Source of the DNA: Arthrobacter sp. SW1
Lineage (GTDB): Bacteria > Actinomycetota > Actinomycetes > Actinomycetales > Micrococcaceae
Direction of reading: 5' to 3'
DNA length: 64,000 bases
Assembly: GCF_001766675.1 (NCBI RefSeq)
Contig: NZ_MJLT01000067.1
Coordinates: forward strand, 109,113 to 173,112
A program made the position numbers and the translations under genes. Below the pieces are notes generated by a model, which was not told where the DNA came from, searched no databases, and saw nothing but the letters and a program-made list of their open reading frames with translations. Positions 15,641-39,447 of the stretch are shown piece by piece (position 1 is the first letter of the stretch; every line of letters starts with the position of its first letter).

Positions 15641-15649
15641 GGACCGAGA

Positions 15650-24553: not shown

Positions 24554-25393
24554 ATGGCCGCAGGGAGGCGGGGTCCGGGCTTTCTGCCGGGTATCACTGG
24601 TACCGGCGCGCTGCGTGACGGCCCCTCGCCAGAGGCTCTCCGCAAACCCTTCTTCATCGCCGCCGTCGTGGTGTTTGCCCTCGCGGTCCTGGCGGAAATC
24701 GGCATGTCGCTCCTGCTCGGCGGGACCGCCGTCGAACCCGTCCAGCCTGGCGAAGCAGCCAAACTGGGCGTCCCGCTCGACGTCTTCCTCAAGACCCAGA
24801 AAGCCGACGCCGATCCGCCCGGAACGGGCATCGCGTTCCTTGCGTTCCTGGACGGTTTGCTGCTGTTCACTGTGGTGATGCTCGGCCTCAGCCTGATGAT
24901 GGAGCTGCGGGTCTACGGCAGGATCCAGGGGATCGTCACCTTGATCGTCACCTTCCTGTGGGTGGTGGGCGCGTTCTTCGCGGCCATGCTGGCGATGGCC
25001 AAGCTGTTCCTGATGTTCGGGTTGTTCGTGGCCACGCCCTTCGGGACCTTGGCCTACCTGGCGCTGTGGGGTAGCTTCCCCACCCGACAGGCCGCCGCGA
25101 TCCTCGGTCTGCTCCTCCTGCTGAAAGCCGTCTTCGCGGTCCTGCTGATCCTGAGCCAACCCAAGTTCCTCAAGGTCACCGGCCTTGTGGTCCTCCTGGT
25201 GGCGTCCGTAGTGATGCAGATCGTGCTCGGCGTGATCCACGGCTTCCTGCCGGGACCGCTGGTATCGATCGGCGACCAGTTCTGGGCCCTCATCACCGTG
25301 ATCGTGGCCCTGGTCTGGGCGTTGGTGATGCTGATCGTTTCGATCCCGGCGATCATCAATGCCCTGCGGGTCAGCGGCGCGGCGGGGGACTGA
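24554..25393 (+). CDS. Unrecognised polytopic membrane protein
   Basis: This 279-residue protein has a hydrophilic N-terminus of about 30 residues and some six to seven predicted helices (IAAVVVFALAVLAEIGMSLLL; LVVLLVASVVMQIVLGVIHG). No transporter or enzyme motif is seen. It is 90 bp from the preceding orphan gene and convergent with alaA, leaving 15 bp between stops. A role cannot be assigned. Confidence 0.72.
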   Translation: MAAGRRGPGFLPGITGTGALRDGPSPEALRKPFFIAAVVVFALAVLAEIGMSLLLGGTAVEPVQPGEAAKLGVPLDVFLKTQKADADPPGTGIAFLAFLDGLLLFTVVMLGLSLMMELRVYGRIQGIVTLIVTFLWVVGAFFAAMLAMAKLFLMFGLFVATPFGTLAYLALWGSFPTRQAAAILGLLLLLKAVFAVLLILSQPKFLKVTGLVVLLVASVVMQIVLGVIHGFLPGPLVSIGDQFWALITVIVALVWALVMLIVSIPAIINALRVSGAAGD

Positions 25394-25408: not shown

Positions 25409-26629
25409 CTAAACCCGCGCCCGGTACGCCGCCAGGAACGTCGAAATCCGGCGCACGGCTTCCTCGATGTCCCGCTCCGCCGGCAGGATCACGAAACGGA
25501 AGTGGTCCGGCGTCGGCCAGTTGAACGCGGTGCCGTGCGAGACCAGGATCTTCTGGTCCTGCAGGAGGTCCAGGACGAACTTCTCGTCGTTCTCGATCGG
25601 GTAGATCTCGGGGTCCAGGCGCGGGAACAGGTACATGGCGCCGGCTGCTGGAACACACGAGACGCCGGGGATCGCGGTCAGCAGCTTGTAGGCGAGGTCG
25701 CGCTGTTCGCGCAGCCGGCCGCCGGGCTTGATGAGCTCCTCGATGCTCTGATACCCGCCCAGGCAGGTCTGGATGGCGTGCTGCGCGGGAACGTTGGCGC
25801 ACAAACGCAGCGACGCCAGCAGTTCCAGGGCTTCGCGGTATTCGGCGGTGGCGGCGTGCGGCCCGGTGATCGCCACCCAGCCGGCACGGTACCCGGGCAT
25901 GCGGTACGCCTTGGACAAGCCGCTGAAGGTGAGCACGCAGACGTCCTCCGCCACGGCCGCGGTATGGATGTGCTTGGCCTTCTCGTAGCGGATCTTCTCG
26001 TAGATCTCGTCCGAGAACAGCACGAGGTCATGCTTGCGGGCCAGGTCCGCGAACTGCTCCAGGATGTGCCGCGGGTAGACGGCGCCGGTGGGGTTGTTCG
26101 GGTTGATGATCACGATGGCCCGGGTGCGGGAGGTGATCTTCGCTTCGACGTCCGCCATGTCCGGCCACCAGTTCTGCTCCTCATCGCAGAGGTAGTGCAC
26201 GGGTGTTCCGCCGGTCAGCGTGACGGCGGCGGTCCACAGCGGGTAGTCCGGCGCGGGCACCAGGACCTCGTCCCCGTTCTCCATGAAGGCCTGCAGGGTC
26301 ATGGAGATGAGTTCGCTGACGCCGTTGCCGATGAAGATGTCCTCGACGCCGATCGTCATCAGGTTCTGTGTCTGGTAGTACTGCGAAATGGCGGTCCGGG
26401 CCGAGAAAATGCCCTTCGAATCGCTGTAGCCCTGGGCACCGCGCAGGTGGTGGATCATGTCCACCACCACGGACTCCGGCGCTTCCAGCCCGAACGGCGC
26501 CGTGTCCCCGAGGTTCATCTTGAGGATCCGGTGCCCTTCCGCTTCCATGGCCTTGGCCGCCTGGAGGAGCGGGCCACGGAGTTCATAGCGGACGTTCTGG
26601 AGTTTGCTGGAGTGCTGCATCGGACGCAT
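25409..26629 (-). CDS. alaA: PLP-dependent aminotransferase, alanine transaminase-like
   Basis: This fold-type I aminotransferase of about 406 residues probably makes alanine from pyruvate and glutamate. Visible features are LKMNLGDTAPFGLEAP, the FIGNGVSELISMTL helix, the substrate loop INPNNPTGAVY, the SDEIYEKI strand, the PLP lysine in FSGLSKAYRMPGYRAGW, and the C-terminal FRFVILP arginine. These match AlaA more than AspC. ATGs at 26644, 26629 and 26620 are all in frame; I took the middle one. It is co-directional with and 49 bp downstream of the CIS operon, which may be chance. Confidence 0.9.
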   Translation of the reverse strand: MRPMQHSSKLQNVRYELRGPLLQAAKAMEAEGHRILKMNLGDTAPFGLEAPESVVVDMIHHLRGAQGYSDSKGIFSARTAISQYYQTQNLMTIGVEDIFIGNGVSELISMTLQAFMENGDEVLVPAPDYPLWTAAVTLTGGTPVHYLCDEEQNWWPDMADVEAKITSRTRAIVIINPNNPTGAVYPRHILEQFADLARKHDLVLFSDEIYEKIRYEKAKHIHTAAVAEDVCVLTFSGLSKAYRMPGYRAGWVAITGPHAATAEYREALELLASLRLCANVPAQHAIQTCLGGYQSIEELIKPGGRLREQRDLAYKLLTAIPGVSCVPAAGAMYLFPRLDPEIYPIENDEKFVLDLLQDQKILVSHGTAFNWPTPDHFRFVILPAERDIEEAVRRISTFLAAYRARV

Positions 26630-26678: not shown

Positions 26679-27602
26679 CTACTGGTTCAGCTTGAATTCG
26701 CAGAGCTGGGGCTGGATCTTGCAGACGTTCACCTTCGGATCGACCGGCGAGCTGATATCCCGCAGCTCCGTCTTGACCAGCACCAAGGTGTTGGGCGGCA
26801 CCTTCTCGCCCGCGTCGCGGGTGGCGCCGAGCACCACGCACCTGCTGAGGAGGCCCTGCGAGGAGGTGCACCCGGAACCCTGGCTCACGTCCAGTTGGAT
26901 CTTTGCGGAGGCCGCCCGGGACTTCGCCGTTTCGATCGTCGTCCCCACCAGGACCGGCACAGTGCTCTTCACGGGCACCGCCACCTCCAACGTCACGGTG
27001 GATCCGCGCCCCACGGTCCGGCCGCCGTCGGGCTCCTGTGCAAGAACGGTGCCGGCGGCCTCCGCGCTTTCCTTCTCGGTGACCGCCGTCCCGAAGCCCG
27101 CGTCCTTGAGGATCTGCACCGCCTCGGCCTGCGGTTTGCCCACCACAGGCGGGACGCTCGCGTCCTTGAACATGAACCAGAGCACTCCGCCGACGACGGC
27201 GAGCAGCACCACGCCCCCGATGATCACCCAGAGCCAGGGGAACCCGGGAGTCGGGGCCGGCGTCGCGGGGGGCGGCACCTCGAGCGTCACCACGCGGGAC
27301 TGGTCCGCATAGTTTTCCGGTGCGTCGTCGGCCGAATAGGCGATCAGCTTCACGGGGTAGCTCCCGGGCGCCGCCTTGGTGGTGTCGAAAGTGACGAGGT
27401 ATTGCTCGGTGGCGCCGGCCGCAAGGGTCCGCAGCGGGTCCGGGATGTCCGTGTAGGTTTCGGCAGCGGAGCCACCGGGGAACGCGCCGAGCACCACCCG
27501 GGCGGAGGCCCCGGTGCCGTTGGTGACGGACGCGGTCAACGAGCCCTTGCCGTCCTTCAGCGTCACCGTGGGTGAGCTCAGGGTCATGGTGATGGTGCCC
27601 AT
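26679..27602 (-). CDS. CIS locus: Ig-like/TM/PASTA membrane protein 2
   Basis: This 307-residue protein is the last gene of the CIS operon. Residues 1-110 form a beta-sandwich, Ig/CARDB-like domain (TLSSPTVTLKDGKGSLTASV). Residues 121-145 are one transmembrane helix (FPWLWVIIGGVVLLAVVGG). PASTA-like repeats occupy about 149-208 and 213-278. There is no signal peptide, so the Ig domain is probably cytosolic and the PASTA part outside, where Cys245, Cys255, Cys294 and Cys301 could form disulfides. PASTA repeats bind peptidoglycan or muropeptides in Ser/Thr kinases. ATG 27602 shares one base with the preceding TGA. It is a close paralogue of the neighbouring gene. Confidence 0.85.
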   Translation of the reverse strand: MGTITMTLSSPTVTLKDGKGSLTASVTNGTGASARVVLGAFPGGSAAETYTDIPDPLRTLAAGATEQYLVTFDTTKAAPGSYPVKLIAYSADDAPENYADQSRVVTLEVPPPATPAPTPGFPWLWVIIGGVVLLAVVGGVLWFMFKDASVPPVVGKPQAEAVQILKDAGFGTAVTEKESAEAAGTVLAQEPDGGRTVGRGSTVTLEVAVPVKSTVPVLVGTTIETAKSRAASAKIQLDVSQGSGCTSSQGLLSRCVVLGATRDAGEKVPPNTLVLVKTELRDISSPVDPKVNVCKIQPQLCEFKLNQ

Positions 27603-28480
27603 CAGAGACCTCCTGTTGTGCCCGGGAGGAGTCCGAGCCCGATGATCGGCAGGGTGGCCACCTGCAGCGTCACCTGTGATCCGCGCGGAAGCGGAGTCCC
27701 CACCTCCGGCAGGACGCCTTTCACCATGCCGAAGTCCGCGCCGCCGGGCACCTCCTGCACGGCCACCCTGAAACCGGCCTCCAACAAGGCCTGTTCGGCG
27801 TCTTCGCGGCGCTGGCCGATCACATTGGGCACGGGAATGTCCGCCGCGCGCGCGATTTCCACGCTCACCGTGCTTCCCTTCGCCGCGGTGCCACCGGCCT
27901 CGGGATTCTGGCTGACCACCGTGCCGGGAGCCTCGTTGCTGACCACCTCGGTGGAGCCCATCGAGAACCCGGCGTCGATGAGGATCCGTGCGGCCTCCGC
28001 CTGCTGCTTGCCCCGCACATCCGGCACGTTGCCGCCGCTGCCCTGCAGCAGGAACCACACCACGCCGCCCATCGCCAGGAGCAGCACCACGCCGCCGATG
28101 ATCACCCAAAGCCACGGGAAGCCGCGCTGCGGCGGGGGCGGGGCGGCCGCAGGAACCGTCAGCGTGACCACGTGCGCCTGGTCCGCGTAGTCCTCCGGGG
28201 CGTCGTCCGCGGAGTACGCGATCAGCTTCACGAGATAGCTGCCGGGGGCCGCGCCCGTGGTGTCAAAGGACACCAGATATTGCTCGGTGGCCCCCGGGCC
28301 GAGGGTCCGCAGCGGCTCGTCCACAACCGTGTAGGAAGGAGCGCCGGCCTGTGCGGGGAAAGCCCCGAGCACCACCCGCTCCGGCTCCACGGAACTGTTG
28401 GTCACCGACGCCGTCAGGGAGCCTTTGCCGTCCTTGAGCTCCACGGTGGGGGAGCTGAGGGTAAGGGTGATGCCGGCCAT
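27602..28480 (-). CDS. CIS locus: Ig-like/TM/PASTA membrane protein 1
   Basis: This 292-residue protein shares its first 145 residues very closely with the next gene, so the two arose by duplication. It has an Ig-like domain (1-110), a proline-rich stretch PPPPQRG, a transmembrane helix (121-145), then PASTA repeats at about 151-210 and 214-275 (NVPDVRGKQQAEAARILIDA; VPNVIGQRREDAEQALLEAG). The arginine before the helix and acidic/neutral residues after it favour an inside-to-outside topology. The ATG lies one base after the upstream stop region. No kinase domain is present, unlike the usual PASTA proteins, so anchoring of the CIS to the envelope is my inference. Confidence 0.85.
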   Translation of the reverse strand: MAGITLTLSSPTVELKDGKGSLTASVTNSSVEPERVVLGAFPAQAGAPSYTVVDEPLRTLGPGATEQYLVSFDTTGAAPGSYLVKLIAYSADDAPEDYADQAHVVTLTVPAAAPPPPQRGFPWLWVIIGGVVLLLAMGGVVWFLLQGSGGNVPDVRGKQQAEAARILIDAGFSMGSTEVVSNEAPGTVVSQNPEAGGTAAKGSTVSVEIARAADIPVPNVIGQRREDAEQALLEAGFRVAVQEVPGGADFGMVKGVLPEVGTPLPRGSQVTLQVATLPIIGLGLLPGTTGGL

Positions 28481-28481
28481 G

Positions 28482-28946
28482 TCAGTCCGCCTCCGCCAGG
28501 TTCAAAAGACAGGTTCCAAGAGCTCCGCAGCGGACCCCCAAGGTCCCGCCGCCGGTGCCGAAGGTCAGGTTCACGGTGTCCCCGGCCCCGGCAGTTCGCT
28601 CGCTCCGCGTGCCTTCCACCTCGAGGACCACGACGACGGCGTGTTGCGGCAGCAGCCGCGCCCGCTTGGTGGGCGGTCCGAAGAGTCCGCCGAATTCGCG
28701 GACGGTGAAGGTGCAGCTTCCGGCGACCGTCAACTGGGAACCCGACGCCGAACAGGAGCCGCCCGCGGCGGCGAGGTCCGCCGTCGTGAGTGCGCCGCCC
28801 GCCGCAATCCCGGAAAAGCCGGACTGCCAGTCGGCCGCGGCGTCGTCGTTGCCGCCCCCGAAACCGATTCCGAGGAACAGCACCAGGCCCGCCACGACGG
28901 CACAGGCGATCACCACGATGATCGGCGTGCGGTTCCCGCTATTCAC
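28482..28946 (-). CDS. CIS locus: small single-pass membrane protein with four cysteines
   Basis: This 154-residue protein has one N-terminal helix (about 8-28, PIIVVIACAVVAGLVLFLGI) and an extracytoplasmic beta-rich domain with Cys65, Cys78, Cys140 and Cys146, which could form two disulfides. The family is not recognised. It overlaps the tail protein I-like gene by 8 bp and abuts the PASTA gene, so it belongs to the CIS operon. It may act in the membrane-associated end of the particle; function unknown. Confidence 0.75.
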   Translation of the reverse strand: MNSGNRTPIIVVIACAVVAGLVLFLGIGFGGGNDDAAADWQSGFSGIAAGGALTTADLAAAGGSCSASGSQLTVAGSCTFTVREFGGLFGPPTKRARLLPQHAVVVVLEVEGTRSERTAGAGDTVNLTFGTGGGTLGVRCGALGTCLLNLAEAD

Positions 28947-29472
28947 CTGCCATCACCTCGATCGCGTCCGTGACGTGGGCCGGCTTGATGCCTTTGACGA
29001 TCCGCCGCACCAGCTCCAGCTGTCCCGCAGCCGCGGCCGGGACGCGTACCGTGATGTGGAAGGCCCCGGGCTCGGACACCACCTCGAAACCGGGCACGCC
29101 CGTGGCCAGGTGCAGGAAGCGGGTGAGGCCGTCCGCGGTACCGCGCCGCGCGGACAGGCCCGCGGCACTGGCGATCAGGTCCCGCTGCCGCGCCACCGGG
29201 ATCCCCGCGGAGGCGCTTCCGCTGGCTTCCGGCCCGGGCAGGGTGAGCCAGTCCAGGTCCACCCAGCGGGACAGGAACGGAATGAGCGACGACGGCGAGC
29301 GCCCCGGATCGGGCACGGCAGGGAGGCGGTCCAGGACCTCGCGGACGGGGCGGTGCAGGTCCTCGGCCACGGCGAGCAGGGCCTGCAGGGGCCGGCTGCT
29401 TTCGGCCGCCACCTGGTACACCTCGGGCAGTACGCGCAGGAGGCGGGATTCGCCCAAATCAAACTCAGCCAT
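28939..29472 (-). CDS. CIS baseplate: phage tail protein I-like
   Basis: This 177-residue protein is like P2 tail protein I/Afp12, which joins the baseplate wedge. The recognisable segments are the LLRVLPEVYQ start, SLIPFLSRWVDLDW, and ARRGTADGLTRFLHLATG, a hallmark of the tail domain family found in CIS loci. The C-terminus has a small beta domain (FHITVRVPA) and GIKPAHV, common at the end of these proteins. It overlaps the 3' end of the large baseplate gene by 8 bp and the next membrane-protein gene by 8 bp. Confidence 0.82.
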   Translation of the reverse strand: MAEFDLGESRLLRVLPEVYQVAAESSRPLQALLAVAEDLHRPVREVLDRLPAVPDPGRSPSSLIPFLSRWVDLDWLTLPGPEASGSASAGIPVARQRDLIASAAGLSARRGTADGLTRFLHLATGVPGFEVVSEPGAFHITVRVPAAAAGQLELVRRIVKGIKPAHVTDAIEVMAGE

Positions 29473-32092
29473 GGCCGTGCACCACCTCGATCCGGTGCGC
29501 GCCGGAGCAGAACAGCCAGGTGTCCGGCAGGGTCACCACATCGTCCACCAGCCGCCGCGTGCAGCTCGCCCAGGACGCGGTGTTGTCCGTGCTGCGGTAG
29601 ATCCCTTTGGGCCCGGCCGCCAGCAGGAGTTGCGTGCCGTCGTCGCGCACGGCCCCGGAGACCGCGCGGACCGGCTCGAAGCGGGTGCGGTCCCGCAGGG
29701 GCAGCCCGCAGTTCACGTCCGGGGTGCTCCATTGCGGCGACGCCTGGCCCAGTTGCAGGCGCAGCACGCCGCCGCTCTGCGTGGCGGCGTAGGCGGCGTT
29801 GCCCATCACGTGCACGCCCCAGCAGCTGCCGCCGGACCAGCCCGCGCCGAACTGCTCCCACGCCGATTTCAGGGTGTCCAGGTCGGTGCGGGCCAGTTCG
29901 TCGATCTTCAGCCGCACACAGCCGGTGCCGCTGCCTTCCGGAACGGAACGGCCCAGCCAGAGGTAGCTCGCGCCGCCGTCGTACTGCACGGTCATGCAGC
30001 GGATGTCCTCCCCGGCGGCCTTGACCTGCGTGAAGCTGCCCGCCGCCCCGGCGTCCGGCGAGAGCCACACTCCGGCGGAGGCCTCGGCCGCCACCGCCAC
30101 GCCCGTGCGGCCGCGCACGTCCACCAGCGCGTCCACCGCGTAGAAGCCGCGGTCCGGCTGCGCGGCGTCCACCACGTTCTGCACCGGGATGGCGCCTTCG
30201 CCCAGTGGAAGTTCGTAGAGCCCGCGCTCGCCGGCCAGCAGCAGCACCGGCGCACCCTGCCGGTCCACCCAGCACAGGTCCGCGACGACGAATCCCAGTT
30301 CCGCGGCCCGCCGCCAGGACTCGCCTAGGTCCTCGCTGATGTAGATCCGCGACGACGTGCCCGTCACCGTACTGACAGCCACCATTCCCGGATGCTGCCC
30401 GACGGCGGACCGTCCCGGTGCGGGGGAGCGGAACGGCGCGATGGCCCGCACCGTTTCCGCGGAGGTGTCCGTGTGGAATTCGGCGCACGCCTCCCAGCCG
30501 TCCCCGGCATTGGTAGTGCGGAACAGCAGCCCGTCCTGGGCTACGAACCAGGTGTTGTCCTGCCCCTCGGCCTGCACCAGCCCCATGGCATCGCTGTCCG
30601 GGACCTTGTCCACTTCGAGCCGCACCCGGTCCACGTATTGCACGCCGGGCTCGGCCTCCTCCATTGCCCGGTACAGGTTGGAGACCCGCAGCGGCTTGCC
30701 GAAACCGGAGCCGTAGCTGCCCGCTCCTCCGGGTTCCGGCCCGAACGGGCTGATCCCCTCGGCCAGCCGCGCGGTGATACGGGCTTTGACGGCGTCGGCG
30801 TCCTCGTCCGGGCGCACCACGATCCGCGCATCCACCAGCACCTGCTTGTACAGGCCCCAGCGGACCACGGGTTCGGCGCCCACGGTGGAGCGGCGGCGCA
30901 GGTAGCGTTCGACGTCGTCCCGCACCTCGCCGCGGGCGTGCGCCGCGAGCTCGGCGGCGGTAACGGGCGTTCCTTGTGCGCCGCCGGCGCCCGGCACGAA
31001 CGGCACCAGCACCACCTCCACCTCGCCCGGTTTCGCGAAGGCCCACAGTTCCTTCCGGGTGAAGGCCCGGGCCCGGGCCACCCCGCCGTGCCGCATGGCC
31101 AGCACCTCGTAGTCCCGCACCGTGACGGCGCGGTCCCGGGCCTGGAAATCCTGGGGTGCCCGGCGGAGCGCGTTCTCCAGGGCCTCGCCGTCGCGCCCGC
31201 CCGTGGCCGGCTCCGGGTTGCTGACCCGGACCCCGGGCAGTGGGGTCCGCAGCACGGTCAACTGCCCGGCGCCCACGTTTCCGCGCAGCCCGCCGCCGCC
31301 GCGGTACCAGGCCCGCACTTCGGCGCCGGGACCGGGAACAACAGGATGTTCTGGCGAACTCGCGCCCTCATCCCACCACGCGAACATCACGACGCCGGCG
31401 CTCCGGTCGATCCGCACCGGCACCTCCCCGGGGCGTGCGTCCGCGAAGGCCTCCACCTCGCGGCAGTACCGGAACGGCTTGCCGTCCACCAGCACGGCCT
31501 CGCCGCTGCTGAGCCGGGTTCCAGCCGGCACTTCGATCGCCACCGACAAACCAGCCCCGGACACAATTGGCGCATTCGGCACCACGAAGCTCTGCCCCGG
31601 ACGGCCCGTCCCCGTGCCGATCGGAACGGCGTCGTACAAGGTGACATCGGCGGCCGGAACCAGCACACTGGCTTGGCCGGCAGGCAGCACCGCGGCCGTC
31701 GTCGTCGTGAATACCGGCTGCGGAGTCCCGGGCACGCCGGGCGGACAGCTGACCTGGGTGCCGCGCGGAATCCGGATCTCCGGGGCGGCGCCGCCGCTTG
31801 CTGCACCCGAACTGGCGAGGCGCGTGAATTCCAGCATGGTTTCGGCGCTGGCAGGCGGGTAGAGGCTGGTGCCGAGCAGGTTCAGGTACACGGCGTACAG
31901 CTTCTCCGGCACCCGGTTGAGCCGGTACATCAGGGTGTCCGTGAGGTAGGCGAAGGCTTCCAGGATGGTGATGCCGGGATCGTGCACGGACAGGTCTGTC
32001 CAGTCCGGGGCGATCTGCCGGATGCGCTCGCGGGCGCCGGCCACCAGCTCCGCGAAGCTGCGGTCATCCAGGTTCGGCACGGGAATGCTCAT
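29465..32092 (-). CDS. CIS baseplate J-like protein fused to a beta-propeller
   Basis: This 875-residue protein is encoded between gp25 and tail protein I genes, as Afp11/gpJ should be. Residues 1-500 are baseplate-like: DWTDLSVHDPGITILEAFAY, YLNLLGTSLYPP, IRIPRGTQVSCP and RAVTVRDYEVLAMRHGGVARA. Residues 510-870 hold sortilin/BNR-type blades with Asp-box-like turns (SEDLGESW at 586, TTNAGDGW at 526, STDNTASW at 834), implying a beta-propeller joined to the baseplate. The propeller could bind a ligand, a partner or the envelope, and may stand in for a separate fibre. The start overlaps the gp25 stop by 4 bp. Confidence 0.88.
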   Translation of the reverse strand: MSIPVPNLDDRSFAELVAGARERIRQIAPDWTDLSVHDPGITILEAFAYLTDTLMYRLNRVPEKLYAVYLNLLGTSLYPPASAETMLEFTRLASSGAASGGAAPEIRIPRGTQVSCPPGVPGTPQPVFTTTTAAVLPAGQASVLVPAADVTLYDAVPIGTGTGRPGQSFVVPNAPIVSGAGLSVAIEVPAGTRLSSGEAVLVDGKPFRYCREVEAFADARPGEVPVRIDRSAGVVMFAWWDEGASSPEHPVVPGPGAEVRAWYRGGGGLRGNVGAGQLTVLRTPLPGVRVSNPEPATGGRDGEALENALRRAPQDFQARDRAVTVRDYEVLAMRHGGVARARAFTRKELWAFAKPGEVEVVLVPFVPGAGGAQGTPVTAAELAAHARGEVRDDVERYLRRRSTVGAEPVVRWGLYKQVLVDARIVVRPDEDADAVKARITARLAEGISPFGPEPGGAGSYGSGFGKPLRVSNLYRAMEEAEPGVQYVDRVRLEVDKVPDSDAMGLVQAEGQDNTWFVAQDGLLFRTTNAGDGWEACAEFHTDTSAETVRAIAPFRSPAPGRSAVGQHPGMVAVSTVTGTSSRIYISEDLGESWRRAAELGFVVADLCWVDRQGAPVLLLAGERGLYELPLGEGAIPVQNVVDAAQPDRGFYAVDALVDVRGRTGVAVAAEASAGVWLSPDAGAAGSFTQVKAAGEDIRCMTVQYDGGASYLWLGRSVPEGSGTGCVRLKIDELARTDLDTLKSAWEQFGAGWSGGSCWGVHVMGNAAYAATQSGGVLRLQLGQASPQWSTPDVNCGLPLRDRTRFEPVRAVSGAVRDDGTQLLLAAGPKGIYRSTDNTASWASCTRRLVDDVVTLPDTWLFCSGAHRIEVVHGHG

Positions 32093-32532
32093 GCTGTGCC
32101 TCCTGATCCGGCGGATTCAACCGGCAAGGTGATGGCCAGCTCGTCCTCCTGCTGGGTGGACCGCACCCGGTACCGCAGCCGGACCTCCAGCAGCTCCGGG
32201 CTCGACGGCGAGCGCGAGGCATCCAGGGATAGCACCGTGATCCGCGGCTCCCACTGTTCCACGGCCCGCGCCACGTAGTGGATGGCCAGGCCGGCGGTGG
32301 TGTCGTCCGCGGGCGCGAACGCCAGCCTGAACAGGTGGCAGCCGTACGTGGGCCGGTTGATGCGCTCGCCGGGCCGGGTGCTCAGGAGCAGCAGCAGGGC
32401 CTGCCGCACGGAGGCGGCGTCCGTGACCGTGGCGAGCCTGCCGTCCGGGGTGAGATTAAGGCCGGAAAGCCCGACGGCGGCGTCGAAGTCCGGATGCACG
32501 AAGGCCACCGATTTGTACCTGGGGGCGCTCAT
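32089..32532 (-). CDS. CIS baseplate: GPW/gp25 family protein
   Basis: This 147-residue protein resembles T4 gp25/P2 W, the wedge subunit that starts sheath polymerisation. Visible features are the LNLTPDGRLATVTDAASVRQALLLLL helix region (as two parts) and the RPGERINRPTYGCHLFRL core. An EPR-type turn is present as EPRITVL. ATG 32532 overlaps the upstream stop (ATGA); the longer frame to 32793 has no baseplate-like sequence before MSAPRYK and was rejected. Confidence 0.88.
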   Translation of the reverse strand: MSAPRYKSVAFVHPDFDAAVGLSGLNLTPDGRLATVTDAASVRQALLLLLSTRPGERINRPTYGCHLFRLAFAPADDTTAGLAIHYVARAVEQWEPRITVLSLDASRSPSSPELLEVRLRYRVRSTQQEDELAITLPVESAGSGGTA

Positions 32533-32867
32533 GATCCCGCCTCCACGAATTCCTGGCCCGGCCGGCGGACGGTGTACTTCACGGCGCCGGGCGGGGTGCC
32601 GTCCGTGAACCCTTCCACGGTGTCCAGGCACATCCGTTTGCCGCCGATCCGAATGAACGTCGAATACCCCTTCAGCACCGGGAGCGTCTTCTGGCAGGGC
32701 TTGTAGTTCAACGACACATTGGGGCACATGGAGATGTCCCGGCCCACGGGATCGGCTTCCACCAGCACGGGCGAGCCCGCCACCCGCACCCACTCCTGCG
32801 AGGGGACGTTCTGTACCTTGCCGTCGTGCCCGCAGCGCAGGATGGCTTCCTTAGTCAGAATTTTCAT
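32529..32867 (-). CDS. CIS locus: small Cys-rich protein, candidate spike tip
   Basis: This 112-residue protein begins MKILTKEAILRCGHDG, with Cys12, His14, Cys48, Cys58 and Cys80. It sits between the VgrG-like and gp25 genes, where CIS loci usually keep the PAAR-type tip (Afp10). Short beta strands and Cys/His ligands would suit a metal-bound cap on the spike. I do not see a clear PAAR motif, so this is position plus composition only. Confidence 0.65.
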   Translation of the reverse strand: MKILTKEAILRCGHDGKVQNVPSQEWVRVAGSPVLVEADPVGRDISMCPNVSLNYKPCQKTLPVLKGYSTFIRIGGKRMCLDTVEGFTDGTPPGAVKYTVRRPGQEFVEAGS

Positions 32868-32899
32868 CGTCCAAGACTTTCACCGCCGGCACCCCCACA

Positions 32900-34405
32900 T
32901 CAGGCCTCCTCGAAATCGACGGTCTTGGCACGGATCTTCATGGCCTTGCCCGGCGCTTCGAGCACCAGGTCCGCGGCCGCGGTGATCCGCAGTTTCTCCG
33001 GCCCCAGCTCCACCGTGGAGCCGTGGCCGTCCGTGAAGCTGACGGTGCGGGCTCCGCCGTCGAGCACTATCTGCTGGCCGTCCGCGGAACGGAAGGTGTA
33101 GCGGCTCTCCCGCGCGGTGTTCACCCCGGCGTCCGGAGTGCGCTCCCGGCCGTAGAGGCCGCCCAGCACGATCGCCTGCACCGGGTCCGTGGCCGGCAGC
33201 AGGACCAGCACGGTGTCCTCCGGGGCCGGCGGCAGCACCAGGCCCTTTCCCGGGCCGGCGGCGCCGCCCAGCACCGGAGCCCAGCCGCTTTCCAGCGGCG
33301 GGTAGGCGGGCAAGCGCACACGGACGCGGCCGCGCTCTTCGGGATCGTCGACGTCGGCCACCACCCCCAGGGTGAACACATCCGGCTGCCGCGGCGGCGG
33401 GGTTTCGGGCGGCCGGGTGGTGATGGTGGTTTCGTAGCCACTGCTGTCCAGGCGGTGCGTGGCCGAGGCCACCGTGTACGTTCCTTCCAGCGACGGCGCC
33501 ACGCCCCGCACCCTGACCCGGCCGCCGGCACGCAGGCGCGGATCGCCGTCGGCCACGAACACCGCGCTGACCTGCCCGGCCACGCGCACATCCAGCTCCG
33601 CCTGCGCCAGTCCATCCGCCACGTCGCCGGAGGCGAAGGCTTCATTGCCGCGCAGCAGGTCCCCGCCCGCTCCCACGCTCGCCAGGGCCGGGTCCGCGGA
33701 TACCCCGGCTTTCGCGTCACTGCCCGACGCCGAACCCTCTACCGCTTCCGCGTCGCCCGCGTGCCACCCGGCGGTGTGGGCGCCCAGGTAGGCGGGCTCC
33801 TGGCTGAGCTCGATCTCCGCCGAATGCAGGCTGCTGCCGAGGTCCAGCTCCACGGGCTCGCCCTCGCCGGCCAAGGTGGTGAGGCGCAGGGTATCGCCGT
33901 CCACCACCGGGTACACGCCCACGCGTGCGCACTGCTCCACCAGCAAGGACAGGTCGGAGCGCGCACATTGGTACACCTGCCCCAGCTTGGCCGAACCCCC
34001 GCTCACCTGCAGGCCGGTTCCTTCGCAGAGCGTCCGGGCCAGGCCGGCGAGCTCAACGTCTTCGTGGAGCCGGGTGGACTGGCGTTTCCGGAGCCGGTGC
34101 AGGGCGTCGTAGGCGCGGACCCGGATTTCCTGGGACAGGTCGGCGCCGTAGCTGCGTTCCACCACAGTGACCTCGCCGGTGAAGAGGGGAGTGCGGCGGC
34201 CACCCAGCTCCACGCGGAGGGCGTCTCCGGGTGCGGGGTCGATGCTCCTGCTGTTGGGCCCGGGCCGCCAGTTGATGAGGCACTGGGCAGGGCGGGCCAA
34301 GGTGCTGAGCATCTGGACTGAGACGATCGCAGCGGTGTCTGCCGCGGACAAGCGCCGCCGCCCGAGGGTGACGATCAATTCGGGAAGCCCCTGCAGCTGC
34401 CTCAT
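32900..34405 (-). CDS. CIS spike: VgrG/gpD-gp5-like protein
   Basis: This 501-residue spike/hub protein combines the two domains seen in Afp8 and VgrG. Residues 1-330 are like late control protein D/gp27 (ELGGRRTPLFTGEVTVVERSY, IRVRAYDALHRLRKRQSTR). Residues 345-430 are a gp5 OB-fold (TLGVVADVDDPEERGRVRVRLP, GWAPVL, VLVLLPATDPVQAIVLGGLYG). A short beta-helical tail (VSFTDGHGSTVELGPEKL) would carry the tip protein. An alanine/glycine-rich insert occurs near residue 220. Its GTG/ATG region overlaps the adaptor gene by 4 bp. It is predicted to puncture the target membrane on contraction. Confidence 0.9.
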   Translation of the reverse strand: MRQLQGLPELIVTLGRRRLSAADTAAIVSVQMLSTLARPAQCLINWRPGPNSRSIDPAPGDALRVELGGRRTPLFTGEVTVVERSYGADLSQEIRVRAYDALHRLRKRQSTRLHEDVELAGLARTLCEGTGLQVSGGSAKLGQVYQCARSDLSLLVEQCARVGVYPVVDGDTLRLTTLAGEGEPVELDLGSSLHSAEIELSQEPAYLGAHTAGWHAGDAEAVEGSASGSDAKAGVSADPALASVGAGGDLLRGNEAFASGDVADGLAQAELDVRVAGQVSAVFVADGDPRLRAGGRVRVRGVAPSLEGTYTVASATHRLDSSGYETTITTRPPETPPPRQPDVFTLGVVADVDDPEERGRVRVRLPAYPPLESGWAPVLGGAAGPGKGLVLPPAPEDTVLVLLPATDPVQAIVLGGLYGRERTPDAGVNTARESRYTFRSADGQQIVLDGGARTVSFTDGHGSTVELGPEKLRITAAADLVLEAPGKAMKIRAKTVDFEEA

Positions 34406-35160
34406 GGCGTTTCACCCATCGGCGGTACGGCCAAGGGGCCGGCGAAATGCGCGGGGTCGTCGATGTTGTTGTACTCCAGCAGCAGCTTCCACAGCAGCGG
34501 CGTGCCGAAGGCCTGCAGGCTGAGGCGCCCCAACTCGCCCGGCGGGACTTCCGGAAGCGGCTCACCGCCGTCGGGGGCCAACGCGTCCCGGTCCGTGCCG
34601 CCGTCGCCGGTCACCGGAAGGGTGTCCACGGGCGGGGCCGTCAGGTCCACCGGCGGCAGGCGGCGGGCGAGCTCGTAGTTCTCGCCGCCTTCCTCATCCG
34701 CGGCCTGGCCCACCCGCACGAACACCAGCCGCATCCAGGAACGCAGCGGCGAGCCGTCCGGGGCGAAACGGTCGAAGCGTTCCGCTACCTCAGTGACGAT
34801 CCCCGGCACGTTCCACGCCCTGCCCCAGACGAAGCGGACCGACGGCGGCCGGCGCTGCCGCTCCACCTCCGCCGAATTTTCCGCGAGCGCCCAGATGGGC
34901 CGGGTCATCTGCCGCACGTCCCGGACATTGAGCGACGCCGGCGCGAGGTCGACGTCGAACAGCAGGTCCAGGCGCAGCTCGGTGTGGCCGCCGCCGGTGA
35001 AGAGCAGGGGATCGTCCGCGAGGCCGCTCCCGGTAAGTTTGCCGCCCGCGCTCCGCCGCGGCTCCACCCCCGCGTTGCGCTGCATCACCACCGTCTCCGG
35101 GTTGAGCAGGCAGCCCAGGTGCTCTCCGGTGTCCTCGATCAGGAACGCCACCCGCTCCAT
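34402..35160 (-). CDS. CIS tube/baseplate adaptor (Afp7/LysM-like)
   Basis: This 252-residue protein opens with ERVAFLIEDTGEHLGCLLNPETVVMQRNA as a beta-rich start (read in two parts), then a tube-like fold with TELRLDLLFDVDL and RPPSVRFVWGRAWNVPGIVTEV. The C-terminus (LWKLLLEYNNIDDPAHF) has the signature seen after a degenerate LysM domain in gp53/Afp7 proteins that link the hub to the tube. It sits directly before VgrG, as in other CIS loci. Separated by one base from the preceding stop. Confidence 0.82.
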   Translation of the reverse strand: MERVAFLIEDTGEHLGCLLNPETVVMQRNAGVEPRRSAGGKLTGSGLADDPLLFTGGGHTELRLDLLFDVDLAPASLNVRDVRQMTRPIWALAENSAEVERQRRPPSVRFVWGRAWNVPGIVTEVAERFDRFAPDGSPLRSWMRLVFVRVGQAADEEGGENYELARRLPPVDLTAPPVDTLPVTGDGGTDRDALAPDGGEPLPEVPPGELGRLSLQAFGTPLLWKLLLEYNNIDDPAHFAGPLAVPPMGETP

Positions 35161-35161
35161 G

Positions 35162-36379
35162 TCACACCGCCTGCTGTTCCAGGATCAGCCGAGCGGACCG
35201 GGCCATGGCGTGTTCGAGGTTGTTCGGCCGGGGTTCCCTATGCGGGCGTGGGGCCAGCTCGGGCCATTGGCCGCTGAGGGCGGGCTTCGGGGCGGGGTGT
35301 GTTGTGGTGTCGGTGTTGCTGGGGTGGCCTTGGGGGTGGGGCTGGGATTCCTCTGCGTCCCTGCGTTGTGGGGCCTGCTCTACGTGCTGTGGTGCGGCCA
35401 AAGGACGCAGAGCAGGCCCCGCAACGGGAATGGTTTCGGGTGCGTGGCGTGGGTTGGGGCCTTCGCCTGGCGCAGCTTGGGACGTGGTTCCTTGGCGCGG
35501 TATGCGAAGCCGAAGCGCGGGCACCTCCCCGGCGCTGCGTTGTGAGGCCTGCCCTGCGTTCATTGGACCTTCCGAAGAACGCAGAGCAGGCCCCGCAACG
35601 GGGGTGGCTTCGTTTCGTGGGGTGGTCCCGTTGCCGGCAGGGACCCGTGTGGAGGCAGAGGCCGGGGTGGGAACAGTGACCTGGCCAGGAACAGCGGGAG
35701 GGACAGCGTCAGCCGGGGGAGTTCGGCGGTGACGTGGGTGCAGGTGCAACGCCGGGCGTGGCTCGGCCGGCGTGGCTTGCTCCTGCTGGACCTGGGGTTG
35801 CGGGGCCCGCCCTGCGTCGAATGATGGCGTCATTGGACGGAGGGCGGGCCCCGCAGTTGGGGGCGCCGGAGTGCTGCTGGTCTCATGGGTGGCTTGCATG
35901 AGGGTAGGTCGCGCAGTGTCGGCTTGCGCGGTGTCGGCTTGCACGGCGAAGAGGGCTGCCGTCGTAGGGCTCTTTGCCTGTGCTGACGGGGCCCGATCCC
36001 GTGGGATAGCGGGCCACAGGGCGGCCTTTCGCAGCCTGGGAAGTCCAAAGCGCCCCCTGACGGCGGACACTTCGACGGTTGGCGCATCAGGCGCATCGCG
36101 CTCTTCCGCGACCAGCCCGGCGTCGCGCAACAAGCGCACCCAGTGCTCGGGTGCGCCGTCGAGGTCGAAGGTGCGGACCGGCGTCGGGCCTTCTGTTCCA
36201 GAAGAAACCGTCCTCGAAGGAGAGCCGCCCGCTGATTGGCCAGGAGCGGAGCCCGGCTCGGAAGGGTCGATCCGTCCGGCAAGCGCCCGAAGCCGCCCGG
36301 CCAGGCTCCGCCGCAAACCGCCGGAACGCCGGGAACCCTCAGGCCACCGGGAACCGTCAGGCCACGGGCGCGCGGGCAT
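35162..36379 (-). CDS. CIS locus: 405-residue low-complexity protein with palindrome-derived repeats
   Basis: The protein is rich in Pro, Ala, Gln and Arg and is predicted to be mostly disordered. A short, possibly folded segment lies at about 66-125 (PVRTFDLDGAPEHWVRLLRDAGL), and an amphipathic helix ends the protein (HAMARSARLILEQQAV). Three related segments at about 176-194, 262-281 and 320-339 (AGPALR..., ending QASQR/QAPQR) correspond to palindromic DNA elements. It overlaps the tube gene by 23 bp and abuts the adaptor gene. In eCIS loci this place often has adaptor or unknown genes. It could be a linker or a length/assembly factor; no family recognised. Confidence 0.7.
   Translation of the reverse strand: MPARPWPDGSRWPEGSRRSGGLRRSLAGRLRALAGRIDPSEPGSAPGQSAGGSPSRTVSSGTEGPTPVRTFDLDGAPEHWVRLLRDAGLVAEERDAPDAPTVEVSAVRGRFGLPRLRKAALWPAIPRDRAPSAQAKSPTTAALFAVQADTAQADTARPTLMQATHETSSTPAPPTAGPALRPMTPSFDAGRAPQPQVQQEQATPAEPRPALHLHPRHRRTPPADAVPPAVPGQVTVPTPASASTRVPAGNGTTPRNEATPVAGPALRSSEGPMNAGQASQRSAGEVPALRLRIPRQGTTSQAAPGEGPNPRHAPETIPVAGPALRPLAAPQHVEQAPQRRDAEESQPHPQGHPSNTDTTTHPAPKPALSGQWPELAPRPHREPRPNNLEHAMARSARLILEQQAV
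35364..35426. repeat. 63-bp palindromic element A inside the 405-residue protein gene
   Basis: Eighteen-base arms (CGTTGTGGGGCCTGCTCT and its near-complement, one mismatch) lie at the ends of exactly 63 bp (21 codons). The element is read in frame as AGPALRPLAAPQ...QAPQR on the minus strand. The element shares arm sequence with elements B and C. Confidence 0.85.
35538..35600. repeat. 63-bp palindromic element B
   Basis: It has 24-base arms with 21 matches and a short loop, 63 bp overall. The arms (core GGCCTGC/GCAGGCC, ending GCGTTC/GAACGC) match element A. It is read in frame as AGPALRSSEGPMNAGQASQR. Confidence 0.88.
35796..35858. repeat. 63-bp palindromic element C
   Basis: Its arms share the core TGCGGGGCCCGCCCT-x-CGTC with one internal mismatch, and the loop contains a smaller palindrome around ATTC/GAAT. 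It spans 63 bp like A and B and is read in frame as AGPALRPMTPSFDAGRAPQ. Confidence 0.82.
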
Positions 36380-36848
36380 CGTCGAGTTCCAGGCGGTCGT
36401 AGGCGATGGTCACGGATTCGATGGCCAGGTCCTTGCCGAGAGCGTCGAGGGGCGCGCCGAACCACTCGCACAGCCAGGCGCCCAGCAGGTTCCAGCGGCG
36501 GACTTCCACGGAACCGGCGTCGTTGAGCATGGCGATGGACACATTGCGCCGCTCCACCTGCCCGTTGGCCGCCTTGAAGAGCCATTGGAGCATTTCGGTG
36601 GAATCCGTCAGCCCGTATTTGAGGGTGACGGGCGTGTATTCGACCTGACCGGGGATGACGCGCACCGTGCTGTTTTCGCCGCCCGAGCGGTAGAGGATGC
36701 GGTCGATCTTCATGCCCAGGCCTTCCACCTTGGTGAAGTGCCCCTGCACCACGCCCTGGATGACCAGCTTGAAGTTGTAGGCGCGGTAGGGGTCCACCAC
36801 GTTGCCGGGCTGCGCGGCCGGGGCGGGGGTGCTTGGCTGCATGCTCAT
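36357..36848 (-). CDS. CIS inner tube protein (gp19-like)
   Basis: This 163-residue tube subunit is like Afp1/5 and T4 gp19. It has DPYRAYNFKLVIQG, FTKVEGLGMKIDRILYRSGGEN (split here as VEGLGMKID and YRSGGEN), VTLKYGLTDSTEMLQWLF, and a C-terminal strand pair RRWNLLGAW...LAIESVTIAYDRLEL. These match the family over its whole length. Only one tube gene is present, in contrast to several paralogues in many eCIS. Cotranscribed with the sheath gene one base away. Confidence 0.92.
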   Translation of the reverse strand: MSMQPSTPAPAAQPGNVVDPYRAYNFKLVIQGVVQGHFTKVEGLGMKIDRILYRSGGENSTVRVIPGQVEYTPVTLKYGLTDSTEMLQWLFKAANGQVERRNVSIAMLNDAGSVEVRRWNLLGAWLCEWFGAPLDALGKDLAIESVTIAYDRLELDDARAPVA

Positions 36849-36849
36849 C

Positions 36850-38154
36850 TCAGGCTCCTGCGGTTTCTGTCTCGGTGGCGTCGGCCGACTGCATGAGCTT
36901 GAAGATCACGAACTCGGCCGGCTTCACGGGCGCGATCCCGATCAGCGTGACCACCTGGCCGGCGTCGCGGACCTCCGGCGGGTTGGTTTCCTCGTCGCAC
37001 TTCACGAAGAAGGCCTGTTGCGGGGTAGTGCCCAGCAGAGCGCCGTCCCGCCACACATTGCTCAGGAACGCGCCGATGTCGCGCCGGATCGACTTCCACA
37101 GCGTGTGGTCGTTGGGTTCGAACACCACCCAGCGGGTGCCGTCCGCCACGGATTCCTTGATCATGTTGGTCAACCGGCGCACGTTGATATAGCGGTACTC
37201 GCTGGCTTCGGGCGCCTTGGTCCGCGCGCCCCACACCCGGATCCCTTCGCCTGGGAAGTACCGGATGCAGTTCACGCCGGCCGGGTTGAGGACCTCCTGT
37301 TCGCCGCGGCTCACGCGCCGCACCAGGTCCAAGGCGCCCTGGATGGGTTCGTTGGCCGGCGCCTTGTGCACGCCGCGGCTGCCGTCCACGCGCGCCCACA
37401 CCCCTGCCATATGGCCCGACGGCGGCTGGGTCACCTTCTTGCCGGACACCGGGTCCGTCATCACGATCCACGGGAAGTACAAGGCCGTGTACCCGCCGGG
37501 CGACTGCGGGGCGCCGAGGGCGTCCTCGCCGGTGGCGCGGCTAGCAGCCGGTGCCGGCGACGCCGGGTGCGGGCCGCCGTCGGGCGCGTCACCTGAATCG
37601 CCGGGCGCCTCAGAGCCGCCCTCCCCCTCAGCTTCCTCCGGCTCCGGTTCGTCCGGCACACCGGACGTCGCCGCCCGGGTGAGCGCTCCGACGTCGTCCA
37701 CTTTCTCCACGGTATCCAGGATCGCCATGCGGTCCTGCCGCAGCGGGTGCTCAACGTGGGCCTGCAGGGCGGCGTAGGAATCGGCGTCGGCGTAGCCGGG
37801 GGCGGCCACCATGGAGATGTCGTCGATCGCTTCGAAGAGGGCCAGGCCCGTGGGTTTGCGGGCGGTGCCGGTGAGGCTGCCGCCCGTGCCGATGTTCACC
37901 ACGTAGCAGCGGCCGCCGCCGTTGGCGAAGAAACCGAAGACGGCGTTGGACAGCGGCGTTCCCTGCGTGGCGTTGCCTACGTACTGGTCCACGAACTGGG
38001 TCCAGTTGTCCAGGACGCGTGCCTCATCCAGGTGCGCCAAGGGATCCGGGGCCACGCCCACGAACCCGGCGATGCTGGTGTTGGTCCGCCCGATGGAGCG
38101 GGCACCGCTGGGCACTTCCTGCACATACACTCCAGGCGCCAGGTAGTTCGCCAT
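36850..38154 (-). CDS. CIS contractile sheath protein
   Basis: This 434-residue tail sheath subunit has the N-terminal YLAPGVYVQEVPSGARSI arm, a SIAGFVGVAP strand, VFGFFANGGGRCYVV, and a conserved C-terminal domain (NPAGVNCIRYFPGEGIRVWGAR in parts, YINVRRLTNMIKES, VFEPNDHTLWKSIRRDIGAFL, GIAPVKPAEFVIF). An acidic, Pro/Ala-rich low-complexity insert occupies about residues 166-221, probably a surface loop of the assembled sheath. Only one sheath gene is in the locus. Contraction drives the tube and spike forward. Confidence 0.94.
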   Translation of the reverse strand: MANYLAPGVYVQEVPSGARSIGRTNTSIAGFVGVAPDPLAHLDEARVLDNWTQFVDQYVGNATQGTPLSNAVFGFFANGGGRCYVVNIGTGGSLTGTARKPTGLALFEAIDDISMVAAPGYADADSYAALQAHVEHPLRQDRMAILDTVEKVDDVGALTRAATSGVPDEPEPEEAEGEGGSEAPGDSGDAPDGGPHPASPAPAASRATGEDALGAPQSPGGYTALYFPWIVMTDPVSGKKVTQPPSGHMAGVWARVDGSRGVHKAPANEPIQGALDLVRRVSRGEQEVLNPAGVNCIRYFPGEGIRVWGARTKAPEASEYRYINVRRLTNMIKESVADGTRWVVFEPNDHTLWKSIRRDIGAFLSNVWRDGALLGTTPQQAFFVKCDEETNPPEVRDAGQVVTLIGIAPVKPAEFVIFKLMQSADATETETAGA

Positions 38155-38166
38155 GGTGCGCTCCCT

Positions 38167-38880
38167 TTACTCCCACCGGATGGTGACCGGCAGGCTGCTT
38201 GTGCTTGCTGACATTTCACGTTCCTTGCCGCGGACCGCCACGGCAAAGTGCTGGAGTTCGTCCGCGGAGGCCAGGACCTCGAAGTGGCCGGTGGCGTCGC
38301 TGACGACGGCGGTGACGGACGAATGCGCGCGGATGTAGGCGTTGGGGATGCCTTTGTTGTGAATGTCCACCAGCCGGCCGTGGATCCTGCGCGCCACCAT
38401 GGTTTCGGCGATGAGCGGTTCCAGGACGGGCGGGCCCGATGGTTCTTCGAAGGCCAGGGACACCGGAACACGGACCAGGAAGCCCAGGCCGTCGCGGATG
38501 CTTGCGGTGTATTCGCCGGGTTCGAACTCACCGGTGGAGACGATCGAGTACTGGCTGTGGCGTTCCACGGCCAGCAGCATTTGTTCCATGAGGGCCAGGC
38601 AGTCCCGGCCGCGGGTTTCGACAGCTACTTTGAGTTCAAGGTCCAACAAGGGGCCGTTCCGCCGGGAGCGCCCCACACGGTTCAGTGCGACCGAACGGAC
38701 AGTGACCGCAGCGTCCGGGGGCGCGCCGCCAGGGGAGGGTTCGCCGTCGTCCTCCAAATGAACCCGCGCAGGCGAGACGGCGTCCGACAGTATCCCGAGC
38801 AGCCCGGTCAGCGAAGCTTGCACAACACCCACGGTGACACCCCAGTCCACAAGGTGGTCCAGTACAGCGGATGTGCACAA
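38167..38880 (-). CDS. CIS cap: DUF4255/Pvc16-like protein with C-terminal beta domain
   Basis: This is the first gene of the CIS operon, 237 residues, with a probable TTG start at 38880 preceded by GGGAG. Residues 1-145 resemble the DUF4255/Afp16 N-terminal domain (LTGLLGILSDAVSPARVHL, RRNGPLLDLELKVAVE), which caps tube and sheath. Residues 160-237 look like a carboxypeptidase-regulatory-like beta domain (GRLVDIHNKGIPNAYIRAHSS, SDATGHFEVLASAD). The added domain is unusual for a cap and might attach another protein. Assignment is by pattern and gene order. Confidence 0.78.
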   Translation of the reverse strand: MCTSAVLDHLVDWGVTVGVVQASLTGLLGILSDAVSPARVHLEDDGEPSPGGAPPDAAVTVRSVALNRVGRSRRNGPLLDLELKVAVETRGRDCLALMEQMLLAVERHSQYSIVSTGEFEPGEYTASIRDGLGFLVRVPVSLAFEEPSGPPVLEPLIAETMVARRIHGRLVDIHNKGIPNAYIRAHSSVTAVVSDATGHFEVLASADELQHFAVAVRGKEREMSASTSSLPVTIRWE

Positions 38881-39437: not shown

Positions 39438-39447
39438 GCGCCCGAGT

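Follow-up and report, generated by a model that had tools for sequence, protein, structure and literature searches.

The 64,000-nucleotide stretch of Arthrobacter sp. SW1 DNA analysed here, which we call the window and which lies on contig C67 of a 4.1-Mb genome (G000), carries a compact contractile injection system (CIS). It belongs to a lineage of its own, without an Afp15-type ATPase, in which the tail genes are inherited together with genes for membrane proteins. From the comparison of gene content and sequence, we lean towards the view that this lineage would act inside the producing cell, at the producer's own cytoplasmic membrane. The locus consists of 13 packed minus-strand open reading frames (ORFs) running from position 38880 to 26679 (Table 1), and their description as mostly overlapping genes in a first-pass annotation, made from the letters alone, holds: seven of the 12 junctions overlap by 1-23 bases and five are gaps of 1-32 bases. 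They include a minimal tail set of one sheath, one tube, adaptor, spike, gp25, J and I, parts which that annotation had also named. The sheath, T4 gp19-like tube, CIS_tube adaptor, Phage_base_V spike, gp25, Baseplate_J/TIGR02243 and Tail_P2_I/TIGR02242 proteins all score above the curated cut-offs of Pfam and NCBIfam.

A lineage of compact injection systems

An alignment scan for J across 84,980 species genomes returned 64 loci. In 37 of these the J match extends to residue 870 or beyond, and they are referred to as compact loci; the other 27 form the comparison set. Compact loci occur in Arthrobacter, Paenarthrobacter, Pseudarthrobacter, Tessaracoccus, Cryobacterium, Cellulomonas, Catellatospora, Rhizocola, Allorhizocola and several actinomycete metagenome-assembled genomes (MAGs), and also in Caulobacter sp. 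BK020 and a Desulfococcus MAG. L086 and L090 both come from a single species record, Catellatospora tritici. Close relatives of the window genome are Arthrobacter cupressi, A. silvisoli and A. celericrescens, with 91-92% identity in the best J segment. Locus L087, in the comparison set, carries the small Cys/His protein of Table 1 and is probably a compact locus cut at a contig end. In L085 (Arthrobacter sp. Hiyo8) the sheath, adaptor, spike, J and other genes each appear as two separate matches, suggesting either sequencing errors or decay.

In a midpoint-rooted tree built from 64 sheath rows, the window together with 32 of the 37 compact loci makes up one side of a single branch, with support of 100/100 (ultrafast bootstrap/Shimodaira-Hasegawa-like approximate likelihood ratio test) in a careful search; a quick tree concurs. 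The tree omits L085 (split gene), L103, L113 and L115 (short) and any locus whose examined stretch has no sheath. Nine neighbouring rows (L037-L039, Actinokineospora and Saccharothrix) join the compact branch with support of 95/80. The 33 compact loci that extend to the tube gene have a single tube match apiece, against two in nine of ten sister-type loci. A sheath search of a family sample of 295 genomes gave matches in 25, of which six have the compact type (G000, G098, G105, G113, G122 and G176). The compact sheaths of the last five are 67-74% identical to that of the window, and the remaining matches are more distant. G098 holds both a compact CIS (contig C135) and, on a separate contig (C80), a canonical-type CIS with ATPase and extracellular CIS (eCIS) core genes.

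A membrane module inherited with the tail

Three kinds of membrane protein accompany the tail genes: a protein with seven transmembrane segments (7-TM), at least one protein with an immunoglobulin-like domain and a transmembrane segment (Ig-TM), and a small protein with an N-terminal anchor. All three are found together in 37 of 37 compact loci and none of them in any of the 27 others, within the examined stretch; in L079, L080 and L082 the N-anchored protein was assigned by position and topology, the search match there being a self-match. Searched for alone in the 295 family genomes, the 7-TM gene is present in exactly the six that have the compact sheath (Fisher p ~1e-12, with independence overstated because the genomes are related), and in G105 gene and sheath sit on different contigs. 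A 7-TM search of a phylum sample of 396 genomes found the gene in three, namely G000 and two others with the compact sheath on the same contig; here the association was checked from the 7-TM gene to the sheath, and not by a sheath search across all 396. Because the module is co-inherited with the tail in this way, coupling of the system to the membrane is supported. Coupling to membrane or wall had been suggested in the first-pass annotation and gains from these counts, while its idea of fixation through PASTA proteins becomes one option among others. That annotation had seen the module in part: its three terminal single-pass proteins stand, each having one predicted TM segment and two of them PASTA domains, and the conserved plus-strand 7-TM gene lies outside the interval that it covered.

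The 7-TM protein, aligned from members in compact loci (alignments A3 and A5), is not recognised by the libraries used and was found only with compact CIS in the samples searched. Nothing in Pfam matched its sequence below E 0.1, nothing in NCBIfam, PHROG or PADLOC at E 0.01, and nothing in the PDB at E 1. Its predicted model (mean predicted local distance difference test score, pLDDT, 77) has no PDB fold match at E 0.001, the best Foldseek hit having E 0.27, and none of 106 pattern matches in viral contigs was confirmed as a relative. Three Cys residues are nearly invariant in the N-anchored protein (alignment A10). In the Caulobacter locus L080 an extra membrane protein of 325 aa with no Pfam match is encoded between the Ig-TM genes and the N-anchored gene (15503-16480, plus strand).

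The Ig-TM proteins were aligned from the window and 17 loci (A6; 20 proteins). Their N-terminal half is conserved and consists of the Ig-like domain and an FPWW-type stretch followed by the TM segment; the outer half varies. Among the 20 members Pfam recognises PASTA in 14, META in two and TIG in two, and an additional paralogue in L036 matches Big_2. PASTA was therefore rejected as a constant part of the family, and the expectation that PASTA genes always accompany the CIS is borne out for the Ig-TM genes, which no compact locus lacks and which mostly have PASTA, and not for PASTA itself. PASTA domains are extracytoplasmic, which places the Ig domain inside the cell; alignment of the Ig-TM proteins with PASTA kinases across the TM segment agrees with this. 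The Ig-TM genes usually lie directly after the baseplate genes, in the place of cisA in Streptomyces. CisA is the one bitopic protein needed there for membrane coupling, and its baseplate contact is only predicted (PMC12237407).

Absence of an Afp15-type ATPase and other eCIS markers

No Afp15-type ATPase was found with two ATPase queries in any of the 37 compact loci, so that none of them looks like a normal eCIS with its ATPase alongside. The Walker-A pattern hit several genes in nine loci, those for sheath and J among them; these hits were discarded, as none of the nine loci matched the two queries. A search of G000 for PF22977, the winged-helix family of the ATPase, gave nothing at E 0.001, and the general AAA family PF00004 has 23 matches there, none of them on C67, in line with the original observation that no AAA+ ATPase is recognisable. 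PF22977 is absent genome-wide from 15 of 19 genomes with a compact CIS, that is from four of five (G000, G113, G122 and G176) and from 11 of 14 further ones of unstated completeness, and is present in all 11 genomes picked for a canonical CIS (five and six; in G115 under the family cut-off). With a single clade, these results bear out the proposal of a reduced or distinct CIS class. An AAA+ ATPase adjoins at least five of the nine sister loci (L037, L038, L091, L092 and L095), the rest being cut or without a match in the examined stretch. Loss of the ATPase in the compact lineage is likely, though not proven because the tree was rooted by midpoint. The compact lineage further suggests that injection systems can be kept in evolution without the Afp15 ATPase.

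Of the eCIS core set of Geller et al. 2021 (PMC8213781), the sheath, gp19 tube, gp25, Baseplate_J and spike are present, and the AAA ATPase, DUF4157/eCIS_core and DUF4255/Pvc16 were not found. PF13699 (eCIS_core, DUF4157) is absent from G000, G113, G122 and G176 and present in the other six genomes compared. The first gene of the locus was considered as a Pvc16/Afp16 terminator (DUF4255) and rejected: there was no Pfam match, and hhalign gave a probability of 0.1% against a two-sequence Pvc16 profile. By position alone it is a possible candidate for a cap or terminator. Its profile matches 39 of 43 compact loci, counting same-genome duplicates, and the other four end upstream at contig ends.

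A PHROGs scan of 19 proteins from the locus and its flanks showed no capsid, lysis or packaging family, in keeping with the first-pass annotation. Four of the ten locus proteins in that scan (nine of the 13 CIS genes and the 7-TM gene) match tail families and six match none; the nine flanking proteins have no structural match. The scan for fibre and lysis families covered the window locus and its flanks. A phage or prophage remnant was rejected on the grounds that no head, lysis or packaging family is present among the scanned proteins, that the genes are under purifying selection and that viral contigs yielded no confirmed relative of the 7-TM protein. General family scans identified none of the locus genes as TssJLM or ClpV, no aimed search having been made, and gp25 scores below the TssE cut-off (TIGR03357).

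One eCIS survey required at least 10 core genes (PMC8213781) and another left out loci without fibre candidates (PMC12923769), which suggests that published survey filters would miss the compact CIS. Contractile injection was not found linked to a PASTA domain or a CHAT protease in the open-access literature searched, although single loci may stand in survey supplements; articles on contractile injection and Arthrobacter, judged by titles and the beginnings of abstracts, concern other matters.

The tape-measure slot

The first-pass annotation had regarded a tape measure as missing. The slot between tube and adaptor is in fact occupied in the window by a 405-aa Pro/Ala-rich ORF that recurs in relatives by position and approximate length. 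The count covers the window and 30 of the 33 tube-bearing compact loci (L068, L085 and L090 are left out); in all of these a single sense ORF fills the gap, and the idea that the slot is simply empty was thereby rejected. In a stricter test the sense frame is fully open in 30 of these 31, failing in L080, where the ORF opens 7 bases into the gap, and antisense frames are open in 5 of 93. Without L073, whose ORF continues into the adaptor gene, the ORFs are 333-505 aa long (median 415; 30 of the 31 loci), and proline averages ~16%. In the Arthrobacter group they have a basic, helix-like N-terminal stretch, a GAPEHW motif, a variable middle and a C-terminal WPEL...RL..EQ motif; conservation in other groups is looser. 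The ORF evolves fast, with a ratio of nonsynonymous to synonymous substitution rates (dN/dS) of 0.5-0.6, and has no match in Pfam, NCBIfam or PHROG scans.

Longer Pro/Ala-rich ORFs occupy the same slot in canonical relatives, with 690-1494 aa in nine loci and 981 aa in L039, and in L130 the slot holds an open frame of 1048 codons (the loci with a long ORF are L037-L039, L088, L091, L094, L095, L098, L100, L104 and L130). The slot ORF is therefore a candidate length determinant or cargo. A missing tape measure would in any case not be distinctive, since the Streptomyces CIS is likewise described as being without a typical one (PMC10066040).

The baseplate wedge and its propeller

The J protein carries a C-terminal extension that an AlphaFold2 model built with 17 sequences (mean pLDDT 82, predicted template-modelling score 0.64) folds as a beta-propeller at about residues 490-875. 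In Foldseek searches with this predicted model the propeller resembles those of GH74 (E 2e-9) and Ycf48 (E 1e-7). The best match of the wedge is S. coelicolor 9gtp (E 7e-20); the overall TM-score is low, 0.23, as the domains move. J of the canonical loci L037-L039 and of L130 is ~650 aa long and does not have the propeller part, and long J proteins also occur in myxococcal loci. Contact between the Streptomyces firing protein CisA and Cis11, the wedge protein at the periphery, has been predicted but not demonstrated (PMC12237407). As Cis11 is the predicted CisA contact, the modelled propeller of J is a plausible docking face.

Proposed mode of action and alternative explanations

If the system acts at the producer's membrane, the tail would assemble in the cytoplasm, and the propeller at the wedge periphery and the inner Ig domain would form a docking contact, the 7-TM protein serving as a membrane platform. 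The PASTA or alternative outer domain would sense or hold the cell wall. On a signal the sheath would contract once and drive the tube through the producer's own membrane; the outcome might be death of the producer, as has been suggested for Streptomyces, or an outward shot. The Pro/Ala-rich protein would probably occupy the tube lumen, where it would set the length or serve as cargo. More tentatively, the compact CIS may represent a further class of membrane-anchored injector beside the type VI secretion system (T6SS) and the thylakoid CIS (tCIS). Such an injector would be ATPase-free and single-shot, held at the inner membrane face by the 7-TM protein and propeller wedge, gated by swappable Ig-TM outer domains (PASTA, META, TIG and Big_2) that read wall signals, and, in Micromonosporaceae, wired to a TPR-CHAT protease as a cell-death device.

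The Ig-TM proteins could instead be cargo. On this alternative, the strongest competitor of an anchor function and in our judgement less likely, the Ig-TM-PASTA proteins would be membrane effectors carried inside or at the tube and injected into a membrane, a route already put forward for the S. coelicolor proteins Sco4256-4258; the 7-TM protein would then be a dock or provide immunity. The three S. coelicolor proteins share a similar N-terminus and a single TM segment, differ in their C-terminal domains and are reported as effectors; a mutant lacking all three has mostly empty tubes and no longer shows CIS-mediated death (PMC10066040). Outside the compact loci, the Ig-TM profile has two matches with E < 1 among the loci searched, both to bitopic, single-TM Ig proteins in CIS loci, at 13333-14691 of L130 (E 1.6e-4) and in the Actinokineospora locus L091 (E 0.0086). 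We infer, on a basis that includes its sheath, that L130 is a Streptomyces-type locus, and position and build would put its protein in the Sco4256-4258 family. Variable outer domains and faster evolution, at a dN/dS of 0.13-0.35, would also suit effectors. The L130 protein is, however, tied to Sco4256-4258 by position and build alone, at least one Ig-TM protein is kept in every compact locus, usually in CisA's place, and PASTA domains point to cell-wall binding.

An ordinary extracellular or tailocin-like particle, with fibre, ATPase and terminator lost or diverged, released by lysis and with the membrane genes as bystanders, seems improbable. Its core parts are homologous to those of eCIS and we know of no export route, both of which favour it; against this, the membrane module separates the compact loci completely from the others, co-occurrence at genome level is exact, no fibre or lysis family was recognised in the window locus, and relatives of the 7-TM protein were not found in viral contigs. 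That the system is decaying and functionless can be given very little credence: some genus-mates without a CIS keep the first gene only, but core genes show dN/dS of 0.01-0.18, the window ORFs are free of stops and one clade has been kept across several families.

Several observations nevertheless weigh against action at the producer's membrane by an ATPase-free machine. A PF22977 protein is encoded elsewhere, outside the compact locus, in four of the 19 compact-CIS genomes, G098 included, and might act in trans; the family also occurs in a control archaeon and is therefore not limited to CIS. Charge bias leaves the topology of the Ig-TM proteins unsettled, the N side being more positive in 13 of 20, with neither window protein among them. 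No tail-fibre family was recognised in scans of the window locus and its flanks, and the rapid divergence of fibres makes misses possible. Finally, the proteins related to Ig-TM in Streptomyces-type CIS may serve as effectors and not as anchors.

Comparison with known systems

The closest solved sheath and wedge, and the best adaptor match, are those of CISSc, the cytoplasmic type IId CIS of S. coelicolor. The window sheath profile is nearest to the sheath of 8bky/9gtp (E 2e-117), and the C-terminal part of the adaptor matches the LysM-domain protein of 9gtp (E 1.6e-8). CISSc has neither a conventional fibre nor a typical tape measure (PMC10066040), and no family of either kind was recognised in the window locus. 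Both encode a bitopic membrane protein after the baseplate genes (PMC12237407), and a Streptomyces-type locus contains the remote Ig-TM relative described above. CISSc differs in having two tube genes against one, and the J propeller and the conserved 7-TM and N-anchored proteins are on the compact side. The compact CIS is also without an Afp15-type ATPase and, in the four genomes searched, an eCIS core domain, two features not checked in S. coelicolor itself.

The tCIS of Anabaena is an intracellular, membrane-coupled CIS, as the compact CIS would be; it touches the membrane by means of a baseplate protein of increased size and a protein with a TM segment (PMC8894136). In tCIS the extension is on Cis12 and the TM segment on the fibre-like Cis13 (PMC8894136), whereas the compact CIS has its extension on J. 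The sheath and wedge of tCIS (7b5h) are more distant, with E 3e-60 and 1e-4. The sister-clade canonical CIS (L037-L039, Actinokineospora and Saccharothrix) share with the compact CIS a related sheath, the N-terminal region of J and a Pro/Ala-rich ORF between tube and adaptor. They differ in the ATPase beside five of the nine loci, two tube genes in all nine, the lack of a membrane module, eCIS_core in L037 and L039, Pvc16 in L037 and the short J of L037-L039. If action at the producer's membrane is the correct reading, the compact CIS would resemble T6SS as a membrane-docked contractile injector.

How a cytoplasmic phage-tail machine is coupled to the membrane in Gram-positive bacteria is the question for which the compact lineage offers a small system, of ~14 genes, with a conserved membrane set.

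Selection, gain and loss

The first gene and nine core genes, without the Pro/Ala-rich ORF, have dN/dS of 0.01-0.18 against two relatives, so the locus does not have the appearance of a decaying remnant. Values for adaptor, spike, gp25, J and I are 0.05-0.18 (against L063 and L071). The 7-TM gene, at 0.08 and 0.15, is in the baseplate range, measured against reference relatives (L052 and L053) that differ from those of the other genes.

In the family sample, G000 is the sole member of its genus with a compact sheath. Three genus-mates were inspected. In G717 and G713 the first gene lies directly before the aminotransferase gene, the intervening CIS and the 7-TM gene being gone; G712 has neither the first gene nor the synteny. 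Two further CIS-less genus-mates, G152 and G063, retain the first gene, with an in-frame stop in the G063 copy. This pattern suggests that the CIS has been lost more than once. Surviving first-gene copies lie at 10287-10805 of L134 and 10176-10685 of L135.

All nine Micromonosporaceae loci have, on the strand of the first gene and 84-220 bases upstream of it, a gene for a TPR-CHAT (caspase-like) protease; the CHAT domain has E 2e-41 in L078, the single locus scanned. No match to this gene was found in the other 28 compact loci, four of which are cut upstream. The neighbour fits a cell-death role in Micromonosporaceae, and the presence of this protease next to nine loci may connect CIS with regulated cell death.

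Features of the locus and its neighbourhood

Table 1. Features of the compact CIS locus, in window positions, with the CHAT-bearing loci of relatives in the last line.
Feature	Position	Strand	Evidence
First gene; unknown N-terminal part and C-terminal carboxypeptidase-regulatory-like beta-sandwich	38167..38880	-	Pfam PF13620 E 0.0019, under cut-off
Contractile sheath, sole copy	36850..38154	-	Pfam PF17482 E 4e-18, PF04984 E 2e-17
Inner tube, single copy	36357..36848	-	Pfam PF06841 E 1.5e-34; TIGR02241 E 2e-36
Pro/Ala-rich ORF, 405 aa, tape-measure position	35162..36379	-	No family match; missed by simple gene caller
Tube adaptor, Cis7-like	34402..35160	-	Pfam PF19266 CIS_tube E 4e-15
VgrG-like spike, Cis8-like	32900..34405	-	Pfam PF04717 E 2e-17; NCBIfam VgrG_rel E 2e-30, under cut-off
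Small Cys/His protein, PAAR position, spike-tip candidate	32529..32867	-	Position and conserved residues
gp25-like baseplate protein, Cis9	32089..32532	-	Pfam PF04965 E 6e-24
Baseplate wedge J, Cis11-like, with added C-terminal beta-propeller (predicted)	29465..32092	-	TIGR02243 E 1e-69
Tail-I-like baseplate protein, Cis12 partner	28939..29472	-	Pfam PF09684 E 1e-7; TIGR02242 E 7e-14
Small membrane protein, N-terminal TM anchor and conserved-Cys domain	28482..28946	-	TM 9-27
Ig-like domain, TM, two PASTA repeats	27602..28480	-	PASTA E 2.5e-27; alignment A6
Ig-like domain, TM, two PASTA repeats, paralogue of 27602..28480	26679..27602	-	PASTA E 3e-17; alignment A6
7-TM protein	24554..25393	+	Same system; one aminotransferase gene between it and CIS
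CHAT-bearing loci L074, L075, L076, L077, L078, L081, L086, L090, L111	~0.6-3.5 kb of each locus		

The Cys/His protein has Cys, His, Cys and Cys invariant across 15 sequences. Pfam and PDB searches with it gave no match, and there are weak profile matches (E 0.005-0.09) to genes in three canonical loci. The aminotransferase gene (25409-26620, minus strand) that separates the CIS from the 7-TM gene matches PHROG 5879 over its full length (E 2e-91), and a copy at 81% identity or more is present in 16 of 21 genomes of the genus, G000 counted. Upstream of the cluster, a small ORF (38943-39461, minus strand) with no match in the other loci searched has 2-3 predicted TM segments.

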